57,012 nucleotides of DNA from NCBI GenBank assembly GCA_003024175.1, contig MDYQ01000155.1, forward strand, positions 1-57,012, written 5' to 3'. The notes below the pieces were generated by a model. That model had not been told where the DNA came from, ran no database searches, and was given only the letters and a program-made list of their open reading frames with translations. The position numbers and the translations under genes were made by a program. The DNA is from Planoprotostelium fungivorum (lineage: Eukaryota; Evosea; Variosea; Cavosteliida; Cavosteliaceae). The first letter of the stretch is position 1; each line of letters starts with the position of its first letter. Of this stretch, positions 2,482-44,359 are shown piece by piece.

Positions 2482-4676
2482 TCATGACATCCAACAATTG
2501 TCTCTGTTCGTGTCCAGTCTGCGGAATTGTAAACTGAAATCCAGGTCGAATTCCTTCTTCATCACCCCAGCGGGCCTGCATCTCATCAGAAACTCTTCCC
2601 TCTCTTCATCTTTCACCTCATCGGCGACCACCCACAATCCTATTCCCCTCGTAGCTCTGTGTATCTCCTCTCCACAATCTTGGCTTGTCCATCGGCCGTC
2701 TTCGTGTAAGACAGCACACCCCGGTCGAGAAGGTTCTCCCTCTCTCCACGTCCACACGGCAGATCTCAAGAGGGTGGGGGACACCTGTGATCATCGATAC
2801 GGTGATCTACAGCGTTGTAGATCGATGACGTCACCTCGTCGAAGCCGAGGTAGCTGGGAGCACATTCGATGAATTTTCCTGCGTTCTGTGGAGTGACTAC
2901 GCCACAGTCCTTGGAACCATCGTAGAAGGGTGTGGCCATCTGTCCCTCTCCTCCCCAATTGCTCCACGTTCCAGGTTCGTAACCACCGCATTCTGGATAT
3001 TCTGCGATGGATGTGTCACGATGATGTGTTCTCATTCTTGTCGATGATGGATGATGATCGACACGAGAGGTGATGACGGATGACGATCGATAAGAGATGT
3101 GTTCGACGTGAGATGATGAAAGTTGATTGACTCACCCGTGAAATATTTGATACAGTTCTTCATCCAACCTGGGATCAAGAAGGGTTTGAAGATGAGAGTT
3201 CCATTGTGTGCACCGTACGTGATCTCACTCTGGAACAGAATCCTCTTTCCCTGAGCGATCAGCTCGTTGGTGCTGGGCCATCTGCCTCCGTACTTGTGCA
3301 TCAATTCGGGGGGAGTGAAGAGCATGTCACCAAAGATGTCTCTGATCGGTCCCTCCACCAGCTCTGTCTGATTCCACGTGAAGTATTTCTGTTCTCTCTT
3401 CATCTTTCATTCTCTATCATGATTTCATGTGATTCCTCTACTATATGCTCTATCATTTTGTTCGATTGTATTTCATTCGAATCAGTTCTATCTTCATTCT
3501 ATGTGAAGAGCGTCACCTGCTCATCGTGATGGATGAACACAAACTCTTCCTTGTTCTCGGGTAGATCTAACCACTCTTTGATCTCTGTAAGACCTTCCGT
3601 CCATGTTCTATCCCACGGAGAGCAGAAGAGATTGGCCGAATTCCAATCCATCGTCTCGTTGTAGTACTCGAAATAAAGCTTTGCGATCGTATCCACGAAG
3701 GCGATATCTGCACCCGAATGACACAGACGGACGGCACCAAAGACATAGTGTGGGTCTAAGTGAAGGGCTCTGATTCCCATTCTCAGTTGGTCTGTCATGG
3801 AATATTCTATGGACGGTTTAGAGGTCGATGAGATGTGAAGAGGTGCGAACCCTGTTGGGCGTAGATCCAGACGTAATCTTCACCACTGAAGATGACTTTG
3901 AGAAGGTGATCGATGAGGAGATCGCCGTTGTATTCTCCGTAGCCATCGGCACTTGTCTCGTTCAGATGGTTGTGACGTGATGAGAGTCTCACCGGTTGTT
4001 GTAGGAGTTGTGAGTGGCTAAGAAGGGGAAGTAGTTGAGAGGGAGGTCTCTCGATAGATTTCGCTGCAGTTCGAGGGTGTTGAGTAACCACGGGTCGATC
4101 TTGAGAGTTCCCCTCTTGCATAATCCGAGGAATGAACGATCGCATTCGTCGCCTTTCATCAGGTCGATTAGTTTCTCTACTCCTCCGTAGCCGGTGTCGT
4201 TGAGTTTCTTTGTGATGTGAGTCGCATGTTCTTTACGGATGAGCTACCTTGCCGTAAGTCCGTGGTGGATTCGATCGATCGATGCGAACGATCCTATCTA
4301 CTCCCAACAGATGACGGATGACGATCGTGGCCCAATCGAGTCCATTGTCTGATCTCACTATGACATTCACAGATAACTGTATCTTTCAATGGGATGCGCG
4401 AAGACTGATTACCTCTTCTCGGTTGTGTGTTTGTGATAAGACACGACTGACAGAAAGACCCATCGATGAAAGAGATGATTCCAAATTCTGCTCGGGTCAG
4501 TCTTGCATCATCTGATGATTTCTCAACACCTTCAAGATATTCAGAGTTGTGTGAGGAACTTTAACCGGGTGCCATACTGAAGGAAGCTCCTCTGATTTGA
4601 GTGTCACAGGAAGACATATTGCTATTCCAAAGAAGAGAACGATTAGAAAAAGATACCCCCTCAGCATGTCGAACAT
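2482..4676 (-). CDS. Secreted PI-PLC X-domain phosphodiesterase
   Basis: The product starts MFDMLRGYLFLIVLFFGIAI, a clear signal peptide, so it is probably secreted or lumenal. An exon near 3990-4150 ends FLATHNSYNN, the first catalytic-His block (THNS) of PI-PLC X domains. About 3500-3800 encodes GIRALHLDPHY and RLCHSG, the barrel strand and second His block. FVFIHHDEQ and FQSEITYG follow, as in the secreted fungal and amoebal PLC-X group. The C-terminal exon (2482-2768) reads AVWTWREGEPSRPGCAVLH, then DGRW and a Cys, resembling the lectin-like tail that many of these proteins carry. No Y domain, EF hand or C2 domain is visible, so this is not a receptor-coupled PLC. The substrate is unknown. 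The intron before the last exon carries a nearly perfect palindromic copy of repeat family A. Confidence 0.72.
2804..2823. repeat. Family A palindrome in PLC-X intron
   Basis: Twenty bases, GATCTACAGCGTTGTAGATC, form an inverted repeat with one mismatched pair. They sit inside a short intron of the PLC-X gene (donor next to FDE, acceptor before VSPTLL). Confidence 0.8.
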
Positions 4677-4925
4677 GTAGGGGTCTGGGTGTTGTGGTGG
4701 TTAACATCTACAAACCAAAGTGACCAAATTTTTGTCCGCAAAAAACGCAACATCATCGGAACACACCCCGGATGCCATCTCCGTTGGAACAGGCCTGTTT
4801 CAAGTATGGCTCAGCTCTGTCGGCAGCCTAGTAGATCTATAGAGCAATGATTGGCGACAGGAGGTGTGGTCATGCTGCGAAACTCCAAAGCTCTGTGAGA
4901 TTGACGAAATCCATCTGTACAATCT

Positions 4926-7900
4926 TTATCTACCCTTGATCTTTCCCTCCTGCATCAACTTTGTGAAGATGCCTTGCACTTGTCATCCACTCATTCTCAC
5001 GCATCATGTCTCACCTGGTGCATTCTCTCCCGTCGAGCGGTGTTGTTCCATGATCTTAGAACAGCCACCGAGTGCCTCGCTCATCTCTGACTTGCTGAGA
5101 TCTTTTCTCATCCTCAACAGGGCCTCCACGACAGACATCGTTGCGTCTGGATGTCTCTGGAGCAGTCCGTGCAAGTACAAACTGATCATGTCCGCCTCAC
5201 TGCTCGTCATCAGTCTTCGCTCTCCGTGACGATCATCGCGGATCACTCACGCATCGATGAGACCTCTCAAGTCAGATAGGATCTTCAGCCTGGTCTCCAC
5301 CGTCGCCGGCTTAACGTGCTTACTGAACACCTCCATCATGATTCTCTGTCGCATTTCAGCGGAATCGGTGTTCGTCCACCCACCTCATCCTCTTCCATCC
5401 GTCCCACTGTGTCATCTTCGAAGAATTGTTTCCTGGAAAACAGCTGGATAACGTATTCATCTACGATACGGTCCATACAAGCGACGGCCTGAGATCGTCT
5501 CATGAGACGATCACGATTCACCTTCTCACGAGTTTCTTAAAGTAACCTTCCATGATGACACCGTCGATGTCGGATAGATAACTCTCGATCGTGTTGATGA
5601 TACCTGCAACACATAAGTGTCCGATATTTATAGATTCAGATCTAGATCTACCTCTAGTCAGTGCTCCTTCGTACCATTCGGGTTGGAATAACTGTTGAAG
5701 AGGTGCCTCTAGATCACCGAAGATGACCTCTACAATGATTTGGACAGCTTCCATGGATACCTGATCGATCGATTAGATCCTTTCTTGAATACAACACAGC
5801 TTGATGTTGATGACGACCACGATCACATGATCATCAAGAGGGTGATCTCATCACCTCGTGAAATCCCTTTGAAATGGGAGGAAAAGAAGCTTCGATCTGC
5901 ATCTTGTATTGGTCGTCCAAGAGGCCAATCATGTATTGTGCCATGTCCTCTACCTGACTATTCCTCTCAGTCCATTATCTCCATTCTGACTCACTCGCAG
6001 CAATTGCTTCCGTTGTTCACTTGGGCCATGATAAATTCCATCGGTAGTTCTCTCCACTCCTCTGTCGTCCTTCACTTTCAATGTCAACTCGAATTTTCAC
6101 CTCTCAACACTCGGCTGATCATCTCCTGGAAGACAGAAAAGGTGACGACACATTCTTGCAGTACTTCGTTGAGGAACTGATTTCGAATCAACCTATGCCC
6201 TCATTCTACCACACACCTTGCTCTCTTGAGCCATCTTTCCAACGTTGATCTGCGTGTGAATGGATTCGAACAACATGGTCGGGGCCAGCGTGACATAGTG
6301 GCCGCCCACCATCTCGGGCTCCTTCTCTTTGTCTTGTTCGATGATGTTCGTCGACCACTCGTCCATCAGTTTCTTTCGAAAGTGAGAAGAGGTGACAGCT
6401 GTTACGTCTCCTCACCCGAATGTGCTCGCGGTAGTGATCGTACAGTGGCTCCAGGGCCTCCACCAGCCTCGGCTGTGGATCAGGAATACCGAGTCGCGCC
6501 AACTGTGGTTCGTACTCGCTGTTGACCCAACTGACTGGTCGTTCCGTCAGTTTTCACTCGATTTTCCGCGACATCTCACTGAGATCTATGATCTCTTGGG
6601 GTGTGATCTTTGTGGGATCCGTAGAGTAGACCATGAACATGGTGTTGAATCGAATGTGATATTCTTTGAAAAAGAATTCGAATATATTCCATCTACAACG
6701 TGTCGACAATAGGCCGAAATAAGGACGAGAGGAAGAATTTTGATGGTACACTCACGTGGGCGGGAAGCATTGAATGACCTCGTCTAACACGGTGGTGAGA
6801 TCATCTATGATATTTTGGATCTCTCTCAGTGTCTGTCCCGCAGTATCGCAGTTGAGAAAGGTCGATTCGAATCGATCCGTGACCTTCGCTTTCATCTGGA
6901 TGAAGAACCTCTCCTTGTATCTTCTCATCGTCAATCACATGAAGATGCGATCGACATCACCTCTTAAACAATCGACTGTTGCGATCATCGTCGGGATCTT
7001 TCTTCTGGCTTACTAATTTGGCCCTCAACAGTTTATCGTATTCTTCTTGTCTCTCCACCACCTGCCATCGAGTCAGTGCGACAAGATGATCCGCGCGAAC
7101 AATGATGGACGATGATCACCTGAAGGGCTTTCACCAGGACGGATGGTCTCTTCTGTGCCAAATCGAGAGCTTGGTTTCCAACTTCCAGAAGTTGACTCTC
7201 AAAGTCCGCGATGAGTTGATCGACCGGTTTGAAACACAACTCGAGAGCTTGTATCTCTTCTGGATCCGTTCCTGTTGAAGATGAGAACAGGTGGTGAGAG
7301 ATCGTGTACCCGTGTGGCGGTATGCGTCGTCTCTCATCGTCTCTAACTGCTGAACCTCGTGGTATACCTGCATCATGTGAGATGATGTCAAGAGATGGTT
7401 TGCAGGATTACCCTGTAGAGGTTGATCGGGTTCTTCATAAGAGTTTCGATCACATTGATCTGATTTACTGTCAATCGCTCGTTTACTGAGTGACTCACTT
7501 GTTCTGGAATCTTTGTCAATCTTCCTAATTCTTTCAAGATGAGGGCGAGATTGTTTCGCGTTCGGCTGACTTCTCGAATGACCGAGTGTTCATCGTGCCC
7601 GATCTGCGATTGTACCTCGTAACATAATTCCTCTGTGTTTTCGAAACTGATGTGTTGAGATGAAAGATCGGTGGTGTGATCTACACCTGCTCTCCATCTG
7701 TTTCACATAAGCATTCGAGACGTCTAACAATCGGTAGCTCTCTTTAGCCTCTTCCAGCAACGACTGCACCATTGTCTTGACCTGAGACTGCACATCTGAT
7801 CAACGCAATGCACCAAATTTCATATTCCTACTTCGAGCATCGTCTTTCTGTGGACTATGCTAAATTTGAGAGCTTCAACGTTCTGAAGATGATATGCAAT

Positions 7901-12663: not shown

Positions 12664-15600
12664 ATGGGTATACCAGGTTTCTATCGCTGGGTCACTTCGC
12701 AGTTTCCCGATGCTGCCGTGAAACTACCCTCATTAGATGCCAACATCGCCGCTGATCCCTATAACACCTCCGAACACTGCTGCGACTACCTCTATCTGGA
12801 CATGAATGGTATCATACACAATTCCACTTATCAGACAGACAATGTGAGTCCTCAGTGTCGTCCTCCGTCTCAATGTTTCAGGTTCTACCACCCTCATACG
12901 AGGCCGCAGGAGCGAGAGTCTGGGAATACATGGACAAATTAGTTTCCTCTTGTCAACCGTCGCGATGTCTATACATCGCTCTAGGTGAGTGACATCAGAG
13001 CCGGACGTCTGTGACTCTGGACAGATGGAGTAGCACCGCGGGCGAAGATGAACCAACAGAGGCAGAGGAGATACACTGCATCGAAGCAGACGAAAGATGA
13101 ACATCAGACGGAAGCCCGTCTGAAGAAGACATACTTGAAGAATAATCAGAGCTCATCGGAGGGCAGATCTGATGATGGTGAACAAGATGCGTTCCATCTC
13201 GCTCAACCACAGACAGGTGCACTGAAGGATTATGTGGACGAAGCGAAGAAGAGTCCGTTCTACCAATTCGATTCCAATCAGATCACACCAGGCACACCAT
13301 TCATGGAGATCGTCTCCGCATGGGTCCATCAATACGCCATCCAGCACACCCAACAGCCTCAAGGATTCTGGAACAATGTGACGTCTCCTCACATCACATC
13401 ATCACTGACAAAGACAACAGGTGGACATCATCGTGTCTGATTCGAGGTCGGTGCATCTTCTCCATCTTCTCATCATCTCATTCTCATCTTCTCTTCTAAA
13501 GCATCTCTAGCGTTCCGGGCGAGGGAGAGCACAAGTTGGTCGATTTTGTCAGACAGAACCAGAAGAGAGACTCAGAGGAGGGTGCCGCCATCAGACGACA
13601 CGTCTTCTATGGACCGGTGCGTGGGATCGTGTAGACACGGTGTCGCTGATGGATGCATCAGGATGCAGATCTGATGATGCTTGGAATGGCCGTACACCAG
13701 AACAACTTTTGGGTGCTGAGAGAGAACACAATCGCTGAACCATGCCCACTGTGAGAGCTCATTGCATCATCCATCGATCGCATCACGGTTCACATCATCG
13801 ACATCACGATGATCACTCCTCCACATGATGTGATCACATCATCGACATCATGATCACAGACGATGTGAATCTGAACCATCCAGGTGTGGAAGGAGTGGTC
13901 ACTCGTTCCAAAACTGCAAGGGAAGTCAAAAACAAAAGAAGAGAGACGATCACGATCATCCCAGCAACACGACCGTACATCTGTGTGAGTTTCATCTTAT
14001 CCACGTCTGTTTGTCTCATTCGTTCTGAACATCGATTCAATTCTTCTCATTCGATAAACAGTCAACATTCCAAAGAACACGAACGAGAGAGATCTGAGAG
14101 ATTATTTCGGTACGTGTGGTGACATCAAAGAAGTCAGACTCATCCACGATCACAACACGTTTCAGACGAAAAAGTGAGAGGGATTCTCATGTAGAGATAT
14201 TTGGACTTAACGTGGGCAGCTACTGTTTCGTAGAGTTTCAAACTCACGAAGCGGCTGTGGCAGCCGTACAATTGAACACGAGACTGTTCAAGAATCACAT
14301 CTTACACGTGCGATTCGCAAAAATGTCCACAGAGGAGGTGAATCGATTTTGAATGTCTCAAATGCATTCTTCTGAACCTCCATAGAAATTTGAAATCAAC
14401 GACGACAAATTGGCTCAGTTTCAGAGTGTAACAGGTGAGATATTCACATTCAATCGATATTTGTATTAATAGATTCTCTGAATGAGATGATATGCGATCG
14501 AAATTGAATAAAGAGAAGGGATGGACAGCGAGACATCTACCGCGTTCCTTTTAGAGGCGAAGGGTGATCTACAACTAGCCATCATGAATTTCTTCGACCC
14601 ATCTGCTGGTGCAGAAGAGGCCGTCGTGCAGAGTCAGCTCTTGAAAATCGCAGGTGTCATCATCATGAGCTTCTCATCACTGACACCGACAGACATGGAG
14701 ATGAAAGAAAACGAAGGAAGAGAAGAAGACAAATCGAGCGGGAAATCCACTCGATTACAACTGATCGACATCGACAAGCTGATGCTCCACATCAAGGAGA
14801 GAATGGTCCCTGATGGTAGTGCGGAACCATCTGGAGGGTGGGAGACATCATCTCATTCTTTCCTCACCTGCGTAGGTTCGAAATCACGGATAACTTCCTC
14901 TTGTTGGCCGTATTGGGAGGGAACGATTTCTTACCTCCCATCGAAATGGTTTCCATCAAAGAGGGTGACCTCAACTGGCTCGTGTCGAATCACAAGAACT
15001 GGTACTCTACATCTTCAGGTGGACTCATCGATGGAGAGGGAGCAGTGAGAACGCAGCGTTATCGTTTCATTGAACGGAATCAGGTCCTCTGGAATCGATT
15101 TGCGAGTTATATCGAGACGTTATTGGATAAGGAGCATCACAAGATGGCTTATAAATACAGAAAAGTCAAGATTCCAAAGGGTGAACCCAACCGAAAGGCC
15201 ACGCAGGAGGTGAGAGAAAAGAGAGAGTCATCTCAACGAGAAAGGCAGTCGTCAACGATCTCACCAACACGATGAGAGAAGGAGAAGAGATAGAAGAGAA
15301 GAAGGAGAACGAAAAGGAGGAAGAGAAGCAAGTGGAAGATCCGTACCAACACTGGCGGGACAATTACTATCGATCCGTATTCGGTGTTGTGGCAGAGAAA
15401 CCAGATTTCATCACAGAGTGAGTTTTCTCTCCATCACATCTCACCGCGAGAAGATTGGTCGCAGCTTACGTGGAGACCGTTCAGTGGGTGGTCCTCTATT
15501 ACAGGAAGGGTATACCCTCTTGGTCCTGGTACTATCCTTATCACTTTCCCCCCCTCCTCTATGATATCCACGCCTATCTCTCATCTCATGGAGATCTCAC

Positions 15601-16024
15601 CACATCTTGCCGAGTGGATCTGCAGGGTGAGCCACCACAGATTTCAAACTGAACGTGATCAGAACGATTGGGAGCACCTTTCCTTCCCTTCCAACAGCTG
15701 ATGGCCGTGTTACCTCCCAACAGCATCAGATTGGCCCTTCCTCCCTCCTTTCACTCTCTCATCGAAGAGGGATCATCCGTCGGTGAGTTTTATCCCTCTC
15801 AGTGGAAGACCATCCACCGTGGAGCGTACAGAAAGTTTTCTGTGGCGGACCTTCCCTTCATCGAAGAGAAGAGGTTCTTGTCTGCCGTTAGACCCGTCGA
15901 AGAGGTGATGTCGTTCTGTGGATGTTGTCTAAAGGGATCAGGGTCTGTCATCAGAGGAAGCTGCGAGGAATCGAAATGTATCGGTTCACGCCGTTTATTC
16001 ACCACAGAAGAAATGATGAAATGA
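12664..16024 (+). CDS. XRN/Rat1-type 5'-3' exoribonuclease with inserted RRM and UBA-like domains
   Basis: The product starts MGIPGFYRWVTSQFPDAA. It carries the first catalytic half (CR1) in order: YLDMNGIIHN (metal site), DGVAPRAKMNQQRQRR (5'-phosphate pocket), FDSNQITPGTPFM, VPGEGEHKLVDF, and DADLMMLGMAVHQNNFWVLRE. A CCHC knuckle follows (CPLCGRSGHSFQNC), which is typical of nuclear XRN2/Rat1. Then 13970-14337 encodes a complete RRM (VHLFNIPKNT, NYCFVEF, HVRFAK). Next, 14386-14640 encodes a UBA-like domain (LAQFQSVTG, DLQLAIMNFFDP). The second catalytic half (CR2) resumes with LQLIDIDKLMLHIKERM, LGGNDFLPP, QWVVLYYRKGIPSWSWYYPYHF and LPFIEEKRFL. All junctions checked across the RRM-UBA block keep frame. 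The C-terminus after VRPVEE is uncertain: a stop at 16024 or, with another splice, at about 16068. It ends tail to tail against the F-box gene. Its role is probably nuclear RNA decay or transcription termination. Confidence 0.85.
13970..14337 (+). other. RRM domain inside the XRN gene
   Basis: Three exons (to 13984, 14062-14173 and 14220-14337) join in frame to a canonical RRM. Strand 1 (RNP2) is VHLFNIPKN, helix 1 is NERDLRDYFGTCGDI, RNP1 is TKNYCFVEF, and strand 4 is ILHVRFAK. The aromatic residues of RNP1 (Y, F) are present, so RNA binding is plausible. Confidence 0.82.
14386..14640 (+). other. UBA-like (TAP-C/p47 type) domain inside the XRN gene
   Basis: The exons join by an intron of about 84 bases (14435-14518). 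They give KLAQFQSVTGM, then STAFLLEAKGDLQLAIMNFF. The F-x-x-x-T-G turn and the D-L-x-x-A-I-x-x-F-F helix are the hallmarks of UBA-like domains in p47, FAF1 and NXF1. This suggests a ubiquitin or export-factor contact. Confidence 0.75.
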
Positions 16025-16041: not shown

Positions 16042-18900
16042 TCATTCTTCTTCATTCTTTCCGTCTGATTCTTCTCGTTTCCCCTCTTCCTCTTGTCTCT
16101 GTCTCTCTTCTTCCTCTTGTCTCTCTTGCTCTTGTCTCTGTCTCTCTTGCCTCTGCTGTTGTTCCAATCTCTGTTGCTCCTGCCTCCGTTGTCGCCTCTC
16201 CTCGAGCAATCTCTTCTGCTCTTCCATCTGCTGCTTCCTCGCTTGTTTCATCTCGTTGTTATAGCTCTCGATCTGGCTGTTCATCCCGTTCTCCGTGGCA
16301 AACGATTTGGCCTTCTCCTTTGGAATGGCCGTGCCCGTCACAGATAAGACCTCCAATCGATGCGAAGCCCTCGCATGCTTGACCGACTCCATCGTGATCC
16401 TCTCACAGCCAGATAAGATGAGGCTGGATAACATCTTGCAGTTCTGAATCAAGAGAGAGACGGAGGCGTCCGTGATCTGTAGAGGGTTCGATCTTTCAAT
16501 AGACGAAAAGGTTAAACTCACGAGTACACAATTTGTGGCGGTGAAGGTGGTCAATTTGTTGCATTTCTTCGCGATGGCTTCGATGGTGGCGTCTGTGATG
16601 GAATCGACGAAAGCGAGATCTAAGAGTTGAAGGTGAGGACACATGGTGGGGATCAAGCTCGTGCTGGCATCCGTGAGACGATTGCATTCTGATAGAACGA
16701 GAGTCGTCAAGTTGCTGCATTCCTTTAATGATTCCTGTGACTGGTCAGATGATGGATGAAGAAGGTGATGACGTACCAGCAGCATGTGATCGGACATGTT
16801 GATGCATCTAGAGAAGAAGAGACCTTCCATGGTTCTCAGGCCTCCCCTCCTCTCTCTCTGTTGCATCTTCTCTACGTTGTGGATACACACGCAGTGAGAG
16901 AAGTAAGCCCTTCCCAATTGTTCAAGATTCTTATCTTTGTCAGTCTACCTTTCAAGAGAAGATAAATCATCTCTCTTATCACCTGCAGGATAGAAGCAAC
17001 GCTGTCTCCTCTTAAATTCGTACAGCCACTGAGAACGATCGTATCGAGTGTTCTCTTCCAGATTCCTTTGGATAACACCTGTCATTTCTTTTAATATCTC
17101 CCACACCATTTCTCCTGCTTACCTCTACATCTGAATCTTCGATGTTCGTGTCGGCCAAGGCAAGATGTACCATGAATGGAAATGAAGAAGAGATGATGGA
17201 GATGCACTCAGCGTCTACGTTTAGACATCCCGTCAGATCTAAGAGCTGAATCTTTGGACAGCATCTAGCCAGAACACTCAGACTCGAAGCATTGACGCTC
17301 TCTCTACATCCGTTCAACTCTGCCTCGATTAGATCTTCCTCCGTCTCGTCACTCACCGAGTATGGTCAGATTGGAGCACTTTTCGAACACGTCAGAGAGT
17401 CCATTGTTCGTGACGAGAGAGCACAGAGACATGTAAAGTGTGTTGAGTGAAGGACATCCATCTGCCACTGCCGTCATACTCTCGTCTGTTACCTTCGAAC
17501 ATCTCGATAGATTCCTGTTGTATGGTGAGAAATCATTCGAAGAGGTGAAACTCACAGTATCTCTAACTGGGGGCAGTTTTGCGCGATGGAGACCACCGAT
17601 TCATCGATGACAAAGTCTTGACGAGATACGTACAGTTTCTTCATCTCGTGACAAGTGTTGGCGATGCTCGTCAGTACCTGTGGGGGATTTGAGCGAAATT
17701 TCATCGGAATCTACGTGAAATTTCATTCACCTCCCGGTCGACGTTCGATGTACAAGACAGATAACAGGTTTCAAGGTTTTCGGCGGATGAAAACAATTGT
17801 ACGAGAGATGCAGTGTCGACTGCGTTCACTGCGTAAGATGAGATTTCGTCCGAATTTCAATGCGGCTTACGTTGGGTGAGATCGATATATCTCAGATCTC
17901 CAGATCTTCCCGCCAATTCTCTCAGACTCCTTCCACCGATTTTACGACATCTCATGACATGTCACGACGATCGATGGATGTTGCATCTTCACCTTCCCAG
18001 GTTCAACTCGGTCAGGTGACACGATCGGATGACCGATGTGAGTCCATCATCGGTGATGAGAGGTAGCCTGGCGACAGACAGTATGTTGACGTTCGTGCAA
18101 GATTCGGATATCTCGAGGAGGAATCGATCGGTCAGTTTCGAACAGCCGAACACGGACAATTCTCTCAATTCTGGGTTCTGTCTCAGCATTCTGCACAGAC
18201 CATCATCGCGGATCCTAGAACATCGAGACAAGACGATGGACTCCATGTGATGGAATACACCTGGTAGACGGTGAGTGCATGGACACGTGGGAGGAGTTCT
18301 CACCGATGACTTCATCGGTCACCCCGTGGACGCTCGTGAGGTTGACTTTCTTCAGTTGTTTCAGCCAGAGGTGATCTGGGGAGAAGAAATGAAGGAGCTC
18401 GGCTTCGGTGAGAGCGTAGCAGCGGTCCAGATTGATACTTTGGACGTATCGGCCTGTTTAGAATGAGCATTGAACGTGATGCGAGGTGATATCACAGTGG
18501 TGGATTATGTGATCGAGTGTGTGGGGACCAATGCTGTTGGCACGAGAGAAATCGATTTCTTCGATGTACTCGTGCAAGAATAGTTCGGACAGCTGATGCA
18601 TCATCAGACGATCTTTTTAATGTTGGATGGCATACCTCATCGCTGAATAGATGACGAGAGATGGAATAATCCAGAACATTTTGGAGAAGACTCTCTGGTA
18701 ATTGATGAAATCTCGTCTTTAAATCACATCAGCGAAAGTGAATTCCTATTCCAATTACCTTATCCTTTTGAAAACGTTCCAAATGGCTTCCCACGCTTCG
18801 AATGCACAAATTTGATAATGATCCTGTTCAATTGAGGAATATAAACTCTGAACGCATCACCTCGCGTGAGAGCGGCAGCGTGCAGAGCTTGAATGGACAT
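16042..18900 (-). CDS. F-box and leucine-rich-repeat protein (FBXL-like) with charged tail
   Basis: This is a probable substrate receptor of an SCF ubiquitin ligase. The first exon reads MSIQALHAAALTRG and joins SLSNLCIRSVGSHLERF and the F-box LPESLLQNVLDYS. About a dozen LRRs of the Cys-containing (AMN1/GRR1) type follow, for example LSELFLHEYIEEIDF, VQSINLDRCYALTE, MESIVLSRCSRIRDDG, LRELSVFGCSKLTD, LTTLVLSECNRLTD and LSSLILSGCERIT. The last LRR is followed by a tail of about 90 residues of Glu, Gln and Arg (16045-16260), a predicted charged single helix or coiled coil. The start at 18900 was chosen because it is the only ATG that joins the F-box frame through an intron. The stop is only 17 bases from the convergent XRN stop. 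One intron (about 17680-17730) carries a family B repeat. Confidence 0.82.
17698..17725. repeat. Family B repeat in F-box gene intron
   Basis: A 28-base segment matches the reverse complement of 37459-37486 in a TARBP1 intron with about four differences. It contains GAAATTTC, GGAATC and a second GAAATTTC. Confidence 0.7.
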
Positions 18901-23014: not shown

Positions 23015-26000
23015 ATGGCTGAGCGGATGAAGAAGATCTTTCGTAGGAAGAATGCGGACGGCAAGAAGTCGAAGACTGAGCAGGAGACAGAAACAGAGGA
23101 GAACAGTGACGAAGAAAGTCTTTACGACTTCTCCGAGGTGGGCAGCGTGGATTCATGTGATATATACATTGACATTGACTCAAGGCCATCGCTGCAGTCA
23201 CCACCGAGATCAAAGAGAGTGAGTCTTGATTTCAAAAGCATATCACATGCACAAATATCAATGACCATAGATCGGTCCGCTATAAACTGTGAATTCTGAC
23301 AGCACTTTTGCAGAGAACAGGAGGTTGACCAACAGTGAGAGTTTAGACGGGGTGTCGATCAGCTCCCAGCCTGGGTCCTCCAGAGTTTCCGTCTCTAATT
23401 TCTCCACCCTCAGAGGAATCGATTCAGACAGTGAGACTCTTCTCCCGTCTCCTCTCAATTCGCACTCCTCCAATCTCATATCACATGCTTCCATATCACA
23501 TGTCATTGTCCAACGCATGACCTATCCCAGAAACTCCAAAGATCTCCGCTTCAGAGGGATTCGTCAGTGGGCCTCTCAGTCCAACCAACAAGGAGAAGAA
23601 GAGGTCTATGAAATTTGGAGCTAGTGAGTCCATCTTCCATCATCTCTCTCATCTCCCTCTCATCTCCCTCGCTCACGATAGAAGGTGCCATCCAAGCCAT
23701 TAAGACATTGAAAGAAGTGGGAAGGCAGCTGAGCCCTGATGGTTCGAACGATCGACTGGTCAGAAGGAACAGCGAATTACGTTTAGAAGACGATACAGAT
23801 CTTCTATCGTGAGTTGTGTGCGTCATAGCACGAGTTGAATTCTCTGCAGACCTAAGAATCGCAAGAACATCGCTTCTTCGGAGAATGTGACGGGGGAGAG
23901 ACAGACCAACACCGACCTTCGATTGCATCGAACGGGGTGATCATCATCATCTCCTCTCCCTTCACATCATCTCCTCTCCTCTCCTCTTCACATCATCATC
24001 ATCTCATCTCGTTTGATCTCGAATTCATCATCATGTGATACCACCATCATGTGATGTCATCAACAACATGAGATCTGAGAGGTGACAGATCTGTGGAAGA
24101 GATCCATTTTACAGATCGAAAGAGTAGAAGGAGTGCTTCTGTCACCCTCCACGCATCAGAAGATCGCCTGCCCGAGACGAAAATGACGGTGAGAGGGTGG
24201 GGGAGGGTCGAGAGTGACTCGTTGTAGATCCAACAGGCCATGGATCACATCGTGTCCACCATCATCCGCCCGGTCAAGCACGGAATGCTCCACGTGAAGA
24301 CCAGACGAAAGGGAAAATGGAAGAGAAAATTCCTCGTATTGTCCACAGATCGGCTGTACTGCTACAAGATCAAGAGCAAAAAGATCTCAGAGAAGAAGAG
24401 CAACATGTACGACATGTTCCACTCTAGCGTGAAACGTGAGTGTCTTCATGATGCATCATCATCATCATCATCTTGATGTGACGTCTCACTTTTATCTTCA
24501 GCTCGGCCCAATAAGGAAGACGGAAGATTTGCCTTCGATCTCATCACCCTCAACGATCAATTGGTCCTGTACACCGACAGGCATGACATCACATGACGTA
24601 ACGCCACATCATCCGCTGACGTGGAGACAGTGAAGAGGAAATGAGAGAGTGGACGAGCAAGATGACTACGGTGTGTAATGATCTCATCTTGAAGACTTTG
24701 GGTCAGAAGCAAGTGGACGATAACACCGTTCCTCCTTCTAAATCGGGAGGTCTCGTCACACGAATGGATGATACGGTGAGATATCACACCATCTCGATAA
24801 GATATCACACCGTGACATACGACATCGCACCTTGACATCATTCTGATCACTCGATCAGATCAACGACACCCACTGGACGAAGGAGCAACACGAGATGAGA
24901 AAACTCCTCACGAGAGAAGGAAACGACGTCTGTGCCGATTGCAATACCGTCGGCCCAGATTGGATTTCCGTCAATCTCGGCATCTTCATCTGCATCAAAT
25001 GTTCCGGAGTACACAGATCTCTCGGAGTCCACATCAGCAAAGTCAGATCGCTCGCCTTGGACAATTTAGACAAGGAACACGTCGACACGGTGGGGCAGAT
25101 GGGAAACATCTTATCGAACAAGATCTGGTTGTCAGAGATCCCCGCTGAATGGACGATGCTCAATCCAAACTCTGAATCGTGAGAGGGGATGTGTGGATGT
25201 AGGCTGACGGTGAAAGTGAATATCGAGTCAAGTTCATCTGTGCAAAGTACAAGGAGAAGAAGTTTATGAATTCGGAATTGGCCGAGAAGGCGAGACAAGA
25301 GCAGGGTGAGCGTTGTAGATGGATCGTAGGATAGAAGAGAAGAGATGAAATGCGTGGGATATTGTACTGAAGAGAAGGATAGAGAAGACAAAGTACAAGG
25401 AGATGTTCATGGCTCTGCTGAAGAACGACAACGAGTTCAGAACTTCCGTTCGATCTTACCTCAACGGAATGGAATCCCCCATCTCTTCCCCCATACCTTC
25501 CTACGTAATTCCAATTCTCCTCCACTTTTCACTCAATCTTCTCAGCTGTCAGCCAACCGTCAGATGCTGCAAGAATCACTCGACGAGGCAGAAATGACTA
25601 CGAGGGACGATTCATCTACAACGACAGAAACGGAGACGAACAAGAATTCTCTGACGGACGTGTCTGGCATCATGTCTAACATCTCGACGGGTGACATCAT
25701 CAAGACATTAGAGGACAGCAGCAGCGACGAGAACGATTCAGTCATTTCTTCTGAGTTGGGATTTGATGGTTCCATCCACTGTGAGTTTTATTGTCGATCT
25801 ACAACTGACCATCGCAGCGCCTTACATGAGGAGCTCGGGTACCAGCCGGAGAGAATCGGAGGTAATTTCGACGAGATCTTGGGTCACGTGACTCAGCTGA
25901 CTGATTCAGGTTGGTACACCCCCGGCGACCGTGTCGACAACAGAAGAGAATACGCCCGTTCCAATTGTCACTTGTCCATCCACGGACAGTGAAATGTCGG

Positions 26001-41678: not shown

Positions 41679-44359
41679 ATGGTTAGCAAGCGAGAACCGA
41701 TCGAGACACCGGTCATCGTCTTAAAGCAGCCTCTATCGGAGATCAAAAGTGTCAGGACCTCCTCCACAAGCCTTTCGGTGGGTGGCATTCAAAGGTAATC
41801 AGCTTCTCTGTTTGTGATGGGTGTTTGATCTTGAGATCAGACCTCTTCGGTCATTTTTGAGGAAGATCGTGTCTGTGCGATGCATCTCTATGGTTGTGGC
41901 TGTGGCTTCCATTTTGGTCGCGAGCGCCATCATCGGAGCCATAGGAGTAGTCCGTCAACAAGAGCTGCTTGATTCTAGCAGCCAAGCTCAGTTCACCGAA
42001 GTCACCACCAATGTTCAGTCACAAGTGAAAAACCTTCTTAGCTGGCCAGATGATTCCGTCACGCTGAGTGAGATGTCCGTGTTGGAAGACCTAAAAATGA
42101 CATCAACAGTGAACAACTACCTACAGAGGACGAACATATCCTTCAATTCCGACCGTGACCAGAAGGTTCGGGACGTCTATCGCTCCAGTTTAGAGATGAT
42201 GGTGTCCCTCTGTTCGTCGAAGATGGAGGGATGTCTCTCCACTTTTTATTGGCCGAATGGAAAGGTGTGGCCGAGTCTACTTTCTCTTCTGGGTCTCAAT
42301 CTTTCAGTCATTCGGTTCGGAGAACGGATGGACATTTGGGAGAACATCATCTACAACTCTTCTTACACCCCTCTGAGTGGATGGTTCATGAATGAGAGCG
42401 ACGACCTATCACAAGTATTCAACGGTCCTAGGTGAAAGAGGACGATGCATCGAGATTGTCTGACCGTCACAGCGACTTCGGTTACCAGTTCTCGGCGGTA
42501 GTCAATAGAAAACCATCACAAGGAGTTAATTGCTCTTCTCCAAGATGGTGGTCAGATCTTGCCACCTTCCCAGCGTATGACCCGCCCATCATGATTATCG
42601 GTCAGAATTCAGTCTTCTGTCGGAATAACACCCTCATTGGATACATCAAGACGTGCGTGGAATTGAACAAGTGAGATGCATCGAGCCATGTTGAAGTGAT
42701 CGATCTGACGTGAAAACAGCATTCAAAAGTCACTCCAAGATGCGCTCGCAAACGGTCAAAACGGCATGCTCTTCTTAGTGGAAGGAACTGGGAAGATCGT
42801 AGCCACTTCAACGGGACTATTCCCTTACGATCTACAATTGTCGGTGACCATTCTAAAGTCAAGCTGATCGACGCCGTAGACAAACCCCCGTCACGGTGAC
42901 GAACACAAATTTGAGTTGGATCTATCAATCTTACGCTCATTACAATCGAACATCAGCGAAGGTATTTTCGATGGAGATCGATGGTAATAATTCATCTCTC
43001 ATCGATGTCAAGATTGATCTCTACTGCAGGTGTAAACCACTTGATCTATGTCAAACCGGACATTGCGCCCTATCCTGATCTAGACTGGACGGTATTCATA
43101 CTGTCCGTACAACCAGTCGACCACTTCGTGAGAAACGTAGTCTTGATTGCTTTCTTCACGTGCATCGGAGCAGCCATCCTAGTATTTGTCGCCACTTTTC
43201 TCATCACTCGGTCACTCTTTCATTTATCTCACGAGCTGGAGAAGGTGACGATGACATCACCTCTGATGATGAGACCCGCACAGACTGACGAAACGAACAG
43301 GTGTCACGATTGGAACTAGATCTCAACGATCTATCGGAGCCTCCAATATGGGAAGCGCAGAGATTATATAAGTCGTTCATCATGATGCATGCAGCTCTCA
43401 GTTCTTTTCGAAAATTCGTGCCCATCGAGCTGATCTCCCACATCATGAAATCCAGGGTGAGCCGAAGCTCTTTCTCGTTCTTTTCAGTCCACGCATGCCG
43501 TCAATTGATGCAAAGTAGAGAGAAGCTTTTCCTTATTTATATCCTACGCAAGCGACTATTTACTTCCAAGACATCAAAGATTTCACTCGATTAGCGGAAA
43601 CGGAAGAGCCCGACGTATTAGCTGCCATCACAGAAGAATACATGGAGGCGATGACAACCATCATAATCGATGTGAGAGCTTTCGTTCAATATCATCTCGA
43701 ATCTGAATCGCCTCTAGAATGGTGGAATGGTGGATAAATACATCGGAGATTGTATCATGGCTCTGTTCAATCTACCAAAACCTCAAGCCGGTCACGAACA
43801 AGCGGCCACGCGTGCAGCTTTGGAATGTACGGAACAACTGCAGCTTCTCAACAAGCGCTGGAAGAAGTTGTACAACATCGAGCTTCAGCACCGAATCGGC
43901 ATCAACACGGGAGAAGTTTTGGCGGGAAATATCGGCAGCAGTCAGAGGTTAGCCTTCACTTGCATCGGCGACAACGTCAATTTGGCCTCTCGAGTGGAAG
44001 GAGCCAACAAGTGCTATCACACTACGGTTTTAATCACGGACACCACGCATGAGAAGATCGACCGACAAACATTCACCACGAGGAAGATCGGCACTGTACG
44101 TGTGGCGGGCAAGAAGAGAGAGACAGTGCTATACGAAGTTTCGAACCATCGGTCACAAGAGTTCAGAGATCTATGTCAGTCTTACGAATACGCCCTACAA
44201 TTGTACGACGAGAGGAAGCTCCACGAAGCGAAGACGGAAGTGGAGATACTACTGGATCATTATGGATACGATGCTGTGTCTGTACGGCTTTTAGGAAGGA
44301 TCAACGTGGCGTTGGAAAGAGGAGAAGCTTGGAGTGTGATCGAAGTATTGGATAAGTGA
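41679..44359 (+). CDS. Receptor-type class III adenylate cyclase
   Basis: The product begins MVSKREPIETPVIVLKQ. After one intron there is a first membrane helix (SMVVAVASILVASAIIGAIG) and an extracellular sensor domain of about 300 residues (41950-43080). A second membrane helix follows (LIAFFTCIGAAILVFVATF) and a HAMP-like linker, then the catalytic domain. The latter has IYFQDIKDFTRLAE (first metal Asp pair), GIVDKYIGDCIMALFN (second metal Asp and the adenine-selecting Lys), HRIGINTGEVLAGNIG and FTCIGDNVNLASRVEG (transition-state region). The residue usually Asp before the T of D-Y-T is Ala here (L-A-F-T). A helical C-terminal segment like a TPR (SYEYALQLYDERKLHEAKTE) ends at 44359. I infer cAMP production in response to an extracellular ligand; cGMP is less likely given the Lys. 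The ligand is unknown. Confidence 0.82.

Follow-up and report, generated by a model that had tools for sequence, protein, structure and literature searches.

XRN-family exoribonucleases are usually described as unselective and as steered by separate partner proteins, and a genome usually comprises two to four XRN-family loci. RRM and UBA-like domains occur together in proteins governing the fate of mRNA, for example NXF1/TAP and GW182/TNRC6, where the domain order is different from the one described below and a nuclease core is absent. The UBA domains of p47/NSFL1C, a p97 cofactor and not a nuclease, and of TDP2 bind ubiquitinated proteins. For structural comparison we refer to 5fir, which we take to be XRN2 of C. 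elegans, and to 7opk, presumably Xrn2 of Chaetomium thermophilum, since its numbering agrees with PMC9512700.

According to the Chaetomium study (PMC9512700), the XRN active site is built of seven conserved acidic residues, the linker between CR1 and CR2 occupies residues 423–568, and a separate loop, residues 266–304, holds the zinc finger. According to the same study, the zinc-finger loop is situated on the active-site side and contributes to RNA binding; without the finger the affinity to RNA decreases 1.5- to 3-fold and stable stem-loops are degraded slower, and the finger in this loop is absent from some yeast XRN2s (PMC9512700).

The gene considered here is located in a 57,012-nucleotide stretch of the Planoprotostelium fungivorum genome (contig MDYQ01000155.1; hereinafter, the window). 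Its features are listed in Table 1.

Table 1. Features of the XRN gene (window coordinates; aa, residue numbers in the 852-aa protein).
Feature	Coordinates	Strand	Evidence or remark
Whole XRN gene	12664..16024	+	16 exons, 15 introns, 852 aa
Exons 1-8	12664-12843, 12882-12984, 13025-13377, 13421-13446, 13511-13616, 13662-13750, 13884-13984, 14062-14173	+	
Exons 9-16	14220-14337, 14386-14434, 14519-14653, 14693-14837, 14876-15209, 15245-15417, 15454-15626, 15663-16024	+	
XRN_N (aa 1-278), first part of CR1	12664..13727	+	Pfam 2.9e-71
Zinc knuckle CPLCGRSGHSFQNC (aa 284-297), CX2CX4HX4C	13743..13917	+	sequence; split by intron 6
Insert, 181 residues (aa 298-478), from last knuckle Cys to LQLIDIDKL	13918..14754	+	
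RRM (aa 315-387)	13969..14310	+	Pfam RRM_1 4.7e-18, match at 320-385
RNP2 VHLFNI	13975-14069	+	spans intron 7
RNP1 KNYCFVEF	14169-14238	+	spans intron 8
Exons 8-11 (414 nt)	14062..14653	+	between phase-1 introns 7 and 11
UBA-like domain (aa 402-439), FQSVTG turn	14401..14598	+	Pfam UBA_4 2.9e-9; spans intron 10
Second part of CR1: LQLIDIDKLMLHIKERM, then GNDFLP with D523	14755..14936	+	alignment; XRN_M 6.6e-6
XRN_M / CR2 (aa 607-814): SWSWYYPYHF, QQLMAVLP	15177..15907	+	Pfam 5.5e-44; alignment

The gene model is a prediction read directly from the DNA sequence. It starts with the ATG at 12664 and ends with the TGA at 16022–16024; all 15 introns (35–133 nt) are of the GT-AG type, and the spliced model has no in-frame stop, in agreement with the initial annotation, which had noted that the splices inspected hold the frame across the insert. 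Retention would bring a stop in nine of the 15 introns (counted for the 855-aa version of the model). The two versions differ in intron 4, where both possible acceptors keep the frame, the intron end at 13510 yielding 852 aa and the one at 13501, 855 aa. We selected the former (exon start 13511), as it produces SDSSVPGEGEHK, the spacing of other XRNs, and a better score with XRN_N (2.9e-71 vs 6e-69). Since the region 13884–14900 contains 17 GTRR donors and 24 YAG acceptors, i.e. alternative splice sites, the 16-exon model is to be regarded as the best reading of the sequence, short of proof.

A probable leucine-rich-repeat gene (16045–16944 and beyond, minus strand; LRR_4 match 8e-6, slightly under the curated cut-off) converges with the XRN gene in a tail-to-tail arrangement. 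Elsewhere in the window, other genes encode an ArfGap domain (24847–25179, plus strand, 1.6e-33) and an adenylate/guanylate cyclase domain (43718–44356, plus strand, 5.1e-18).

The Pfam search of the 852-aa protein yielded XRN_N, RRM_1, UBA_4 and XRN_M in this order (Table 1), that is, the four domains expected from the initial annotation. Both XRN_N and XRN_M, the domain pair of the XRN family, exceed the Pfam gathering score. XRN_M matches the protein in two stretches, residues 607–814 being the best one, and the 160-aa piece downstream of the insert matches this profile also when scored alone (6.6e-6). All seven acidic motif positions are kept in the alignment (D46, D95, E225, E227, D257, D259 and D523); we assume them to be the active-site residues, judging by the motifs. 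The domain pair and the seven positions uphold the initial assignment of the locus as an XRN-type exoribonuclease gene.

Other positions of the core are less uniform. His52, the counterpart of CtXrn2 His61, which stacks on RNA bases, is kept. In the column of the RNA-stacking Trp706 of 7opk, next to a one-residue gap, the window gene has Phe791; the stacking Trp is a mechanistic mark of XRNs and no part of the Pfam family definition. The IDDW and REYL motifs have diverged. The XRN_M match stops at profile position 326 of 443 and just 38 residues follow it, hence the XRN2-type C-terminal segment after CR2 seems to be largely missing. Exonuclease activity of this protein is predicted to be likely, not certain.

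The residues of the knuckle, C284, C287, H292 and C297, fall in the loop corresponding to CtXrn2 266–304, so the initially noted CCHC knuckle is present. It is followed by 181 residues, compared to eight in the own XRN2 of the same genome, 22 in 7opk and 24 and 17 in two XRN2-type genes from other sources (L020 and L018, respectively; see below). As the published borders of Chaetomium Xrn2 put the zinc-finger loop inside CR1, the insert is placed within this loop of CR1, between Pfam XRN_N and XRN_M and outside the CR1–CR2 linker. The initial annotation had located the RRM and UBA-like domain between the two catalytic halves; this is correct with respect to XRN_N and XRN_M, but not with respect to the junction of CR1 and CR2, and the segment starting at LQLIDIDKLM, annotated as CR2, is the second part of CR1 by the borders given in PMC9512700. 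The accompanying statement that XRN2/Rat1 proteins have only a variable linker here is valid as to length, 8–24 residues in the four XRN2-type proteins, but underrates the Chaetomium loop, which helps both RNA binding and degradation of structured RNA.

The RRM_1 (4.7e-18) and UBA_4 (2.9e-9) matches are far beyond chance, and both domains had been correctly recognized before, the RRM by its two RNP motifs (VHLFNI and KNYCFVEF) and the UBA-like domain by the FxxxTG turn, here FQSVTG. In unspliced DNA, exon 8 alone matches positions 5–36 of RRM_1 (1.9e-8) and exon 9 alone, positions 41–69 (2.3e-5), these stretches being consecutive in the profile; as each exon matches by itself, the RRM call does not depend on the splice model. 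The UBA_4 match to the spliced protein covers profile positions 1–38 of 43; in the unspliced frame 14512–15045 it is sub-threshold (0.017, positions 12–38), the remainder of the domain being in exon 10.

Binding of RNA by the RRM and of partners or ubiquitin by the UBA-like domain are plausible predictions. Alternatively, the insert could be a docking module only: the XRN core would be real and expressed, the UBA-like domain would bind a non-ubiquitin partner in the NXF2/TAP-C style, and the RRM would bind protein, not RNA. In accordance with this, the UBA-like domain has a weak match to the TAP_C profile (0.054), and NXF2–Panoramix fusions account for two of its six matches to solved chains (the better one 6opf, E 0.025), the others being three p47 chains and one TDP2 chain. 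The p47 chain 1v92, sharing the UBA-like sequence with the F..VTG turn, is the best of all (E 0.0012), and the TDP2 match (E 0.66) is at the chance level. The RRM carries His in RNP2 at a place usually occupied by an aromatic residue, also in line with docking only; however, RNP1 keeps both usual aromatics, Tyr358 and Phe360, and UBA_4 fits the second domain far better than TAP_C does. We consider a docking-only role possible, albeit doubtful.

An error in the gene model would provide another explanation: the RRM-UBA block might belong to another gene, separate or nested, with the XRN being made without this block. The many other GT and AG sites in the insert region and the feasibility of in-frame skipping of exons 8–11 give such an error some room. 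However, exon 7 encodes the first RRM strand (TVHL) together with the knuckle, of which only the initial residues come from exon 6, and the open frame 14512–15045 leads from the UBA exon across intron 11 to the exon on the XRN_M side without a stop, even if this intron is retained. As exon 7 and this frame tie the insert to both XRN sides, a nested or separate gene was rejected, and the gene-model error is very unlikely; thus, the CCHC knuckle, RRM and UBA-like domain belong to one XRN gene with a continuous frame, as annotated initially. The stop-free frame of the insert in the spliced model is a consequence of its construction and hence was not counted as evidence. In composition the insert is similar to the remaining coding sequence: its GC3 is 0.558 (138 codons) vs 0.563 in the rest of the gene, and the mean codon log-likelihood of the insert is −3.97 in the frame of the gene vs −4.32 and −4.33 in the other two frames.

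Skipping of exons 8–11 is predicted to delete the UBA-like domain and the whole RRM beyond strand 1. Since the skip keeps the frame and this region is rich in further GT and AG sites, an isoform of the XRN without these exons is possible. Clean exon shuffling as the origin of the RRM-UBA block is weakened by the position of RRM strand 1 in exon 7, across intron 7 from the remainder of the block, despite the phase-1 flanking introns.

The XRN_N profile search of the 36.9 Mb genome yielded 20 matches. As they fall on eight contigs (C73, C96, C149, C127, C79, C216, C50 and C240), there may be up to eight XRN-family loci in P. fungivorum, which exceeds the usual number. Seven of them (L007–L013), besides the window gene, were cut out and modelled. 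L008 (C149) is an ordinary XRN2 and L007 (C73) has its top scores against XRN1 chains; L010 and L011 also encode XRNs, while for L009 and L012 the parts submitted to Pfam match XRN_N only. The C240 copy, L013, has the look of a broken gene related to L011 (C216). The zinc-finger loop is clearly short in four of the seven paralogues (L007, L008, L010 and L011) and apparently short in L012 and L013, whose models are weaker; in L009 the loop is unreadable.

The genome's own XRN2, L008, resembles the window gene in having the zinc knuckle and differs from it in the short stretch of eight residues after the knuckle, in the absence of RRM and UBA domains and in a long Gly/Arg-rich C-terminal tail. 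One of its introns (approximately 2599–2808 of L008) consists mostly of a long pyrimidine (TCTTCT-like) repeat and is far longer than any intron of the window gene. Two introns are common in place and phase to the window gene (15 introns) and L008 (11 introns), and therefore speak for a native gene. As proof of XRN2 descent they are weakened, since for one of the two L007 and L010 carry a same-phase intron one column off.

With the insert removed, the window XRN shows 28–38% identity to 11 other XRNs in the alignment, and up to the knuckle, 40–42% to three XRNs. It shares with the XRN2/Rat1 structures 7opk and 5fir (about 33–38% identity without the insert) the XRN_N and XRN_M domains, SD-VPGEGEHK, TPGTPFM and the acidic positions, and with 7opk also a CCHC finger in the same place; the differences from XRN2/Rat1 are the RRM/UBA-like insert, Phe for Trp706 and the short C-terminus. 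The XRN1/Pacman chains (9e70, 6q8y, 2y35 and 3pie; about 33% identity) are similar in the catalytic core, but have no zinc finger in the aligned rows. Three marks are XRN2-like, namely the CCHC finger, TPGTPFM and an SD preceding PGEGEHK: SD occurs in all four XRN2-type rows, vs SG in the XRN1 rows, and TPGTPFM in three of the four, the own XRN2 having TPGTVFM instead. In the tree of 12 rows, which leaves aside L009, L012, L013 and seven of the 14 solved XRN chains and has an incomplete 5fir row, the branch of the window gene is the longest (4.24) and falls into no supported set. The gene appears to be an XRN-family member resembling XRN2, not classed as XRN2, and a fast-evolving extra paralogue beside an ordinary XRN2 and an XRN1-like gene.

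Fast evolution might also reflect decay, the locus being a relaxed copy that has acquired domains and lost its efficiency in RNA degradation. The long branch, the Trp-to-Phe change at the stacking position, the diverged IDDW and REYL motifs, the short C-terminus and the broken-looking relative of another paralogue on C240 are consistent with decay. On the other hand, 16 exons are open and stop-free with GT-AG splice sites, the seven acidic positions are kept, and both inserted domains still have good scores. Decay seems quite improbable.

An exon-by-exon search of the genome for another copy of the RRM-UBA block, or for its donor, revealed no such block among the best candidates: the 14 matches comprised four window exons and ten places elsewhere, in the RRM region, with 27–38% identity. 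The UBA_4 family search gave four places in the genome, and is no proof of absence, as it missed the window's own split UBA. In the viral and prokaryote-genome contig collections, single-protein scans produced no outside relative, and alignment scans produced two XRN loci from each (L018–L021), none of the four carrying the RRM-UBA insert. By reading, L018 appears to be a fungus-like XRN2, L019 giant-virus-like and L021 XRN1-like, whereas L020 appears to be an XRN2 that uses the ciliate code.

Two of these loci are of interest in themselves. L020 (approximately 3971–6598), in a Desulfosporosinus MAG record, is a complete gene of the XRN2 type that can be read only if TAA and TAG stand for Gln; eukaryotic contamination of the bacterial assembly is the probable explanation. 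L018 (approximately 4337–6857) comes from a contig of the viral collection; since this fungus-like XRN2 apparently bears introns, the contig may be cellular rather than viral.

An XRN with an RRM and a UBA domain was not found in the open-licence literature on XRN, among the matches listed. The initial claim that no XRN of such architecture had been described is contradicted neither by these matches nor by the four outside loci, and may hold. The RRM-UBA architecture appears to be a real and unusual XRN variant, seen in one genome.

With moderate confidence, we favour the interpretation of the window gene as an extra XRN2/Rat1-like 5'-3' exoribonuclease with an RRM and a UBA-like domain of the p47/NXF type as an extension of its zinc-finger loop, which would be selective due to this recruitment module. 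From the single frame, the two domains, the short loop in the relatives and the kept acidic residues, all seen in the sequence, we infer capture of RNA, hand-over of its 5' end, docking via the UBA-like domain, and selectivity. The knuckle and the RRM, on the active-site side, would capture particular RNAs and pass their 5' ends to the catalytic pocket, and the UBA-like domain would dock the enzyme either to proteins carrying ubiquitin or to a folded partner, as the NXF2 UBA does with Panoramix; the net outcome would be conversion of a general exonuclease into a selective one. The initial suggestion that the two domains could tether the enzyme to certain transcripts, or to complexes carrying ubiquitin, is a plausible prediction.

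Several points speak against the selective-exonuclease interpretation: the long branch (4.24), Phe for Trp, the diverged IDDW and REYL motifs and the apparent loss of the C-terminal segment, and further, His in RNP2, the weak UBA matches among solved structures, and the occurrence in one genome only. A more specific variant, a ubiquitin-directed 5'-3' exonuclease, seems unlikely: here the RRM would read an RNA feature, the UBA-like domain would read a ubiquitin mark on a stalled ribosome, RNA polymerase II or mRNP, and the RNA would be fed to the XRN active site via the zinc-finger loop.

In the favoured interpretation, a recognition module would be built into the very loop that in Chaetomium Xrn2 aids RNA binding beside the active site. 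If this is true, the zinc-finger loop would be a site where evolution can give an XRN a choice of substrates, and the gene would point to 5'-3' RNA decay being linked directly to protein marks.
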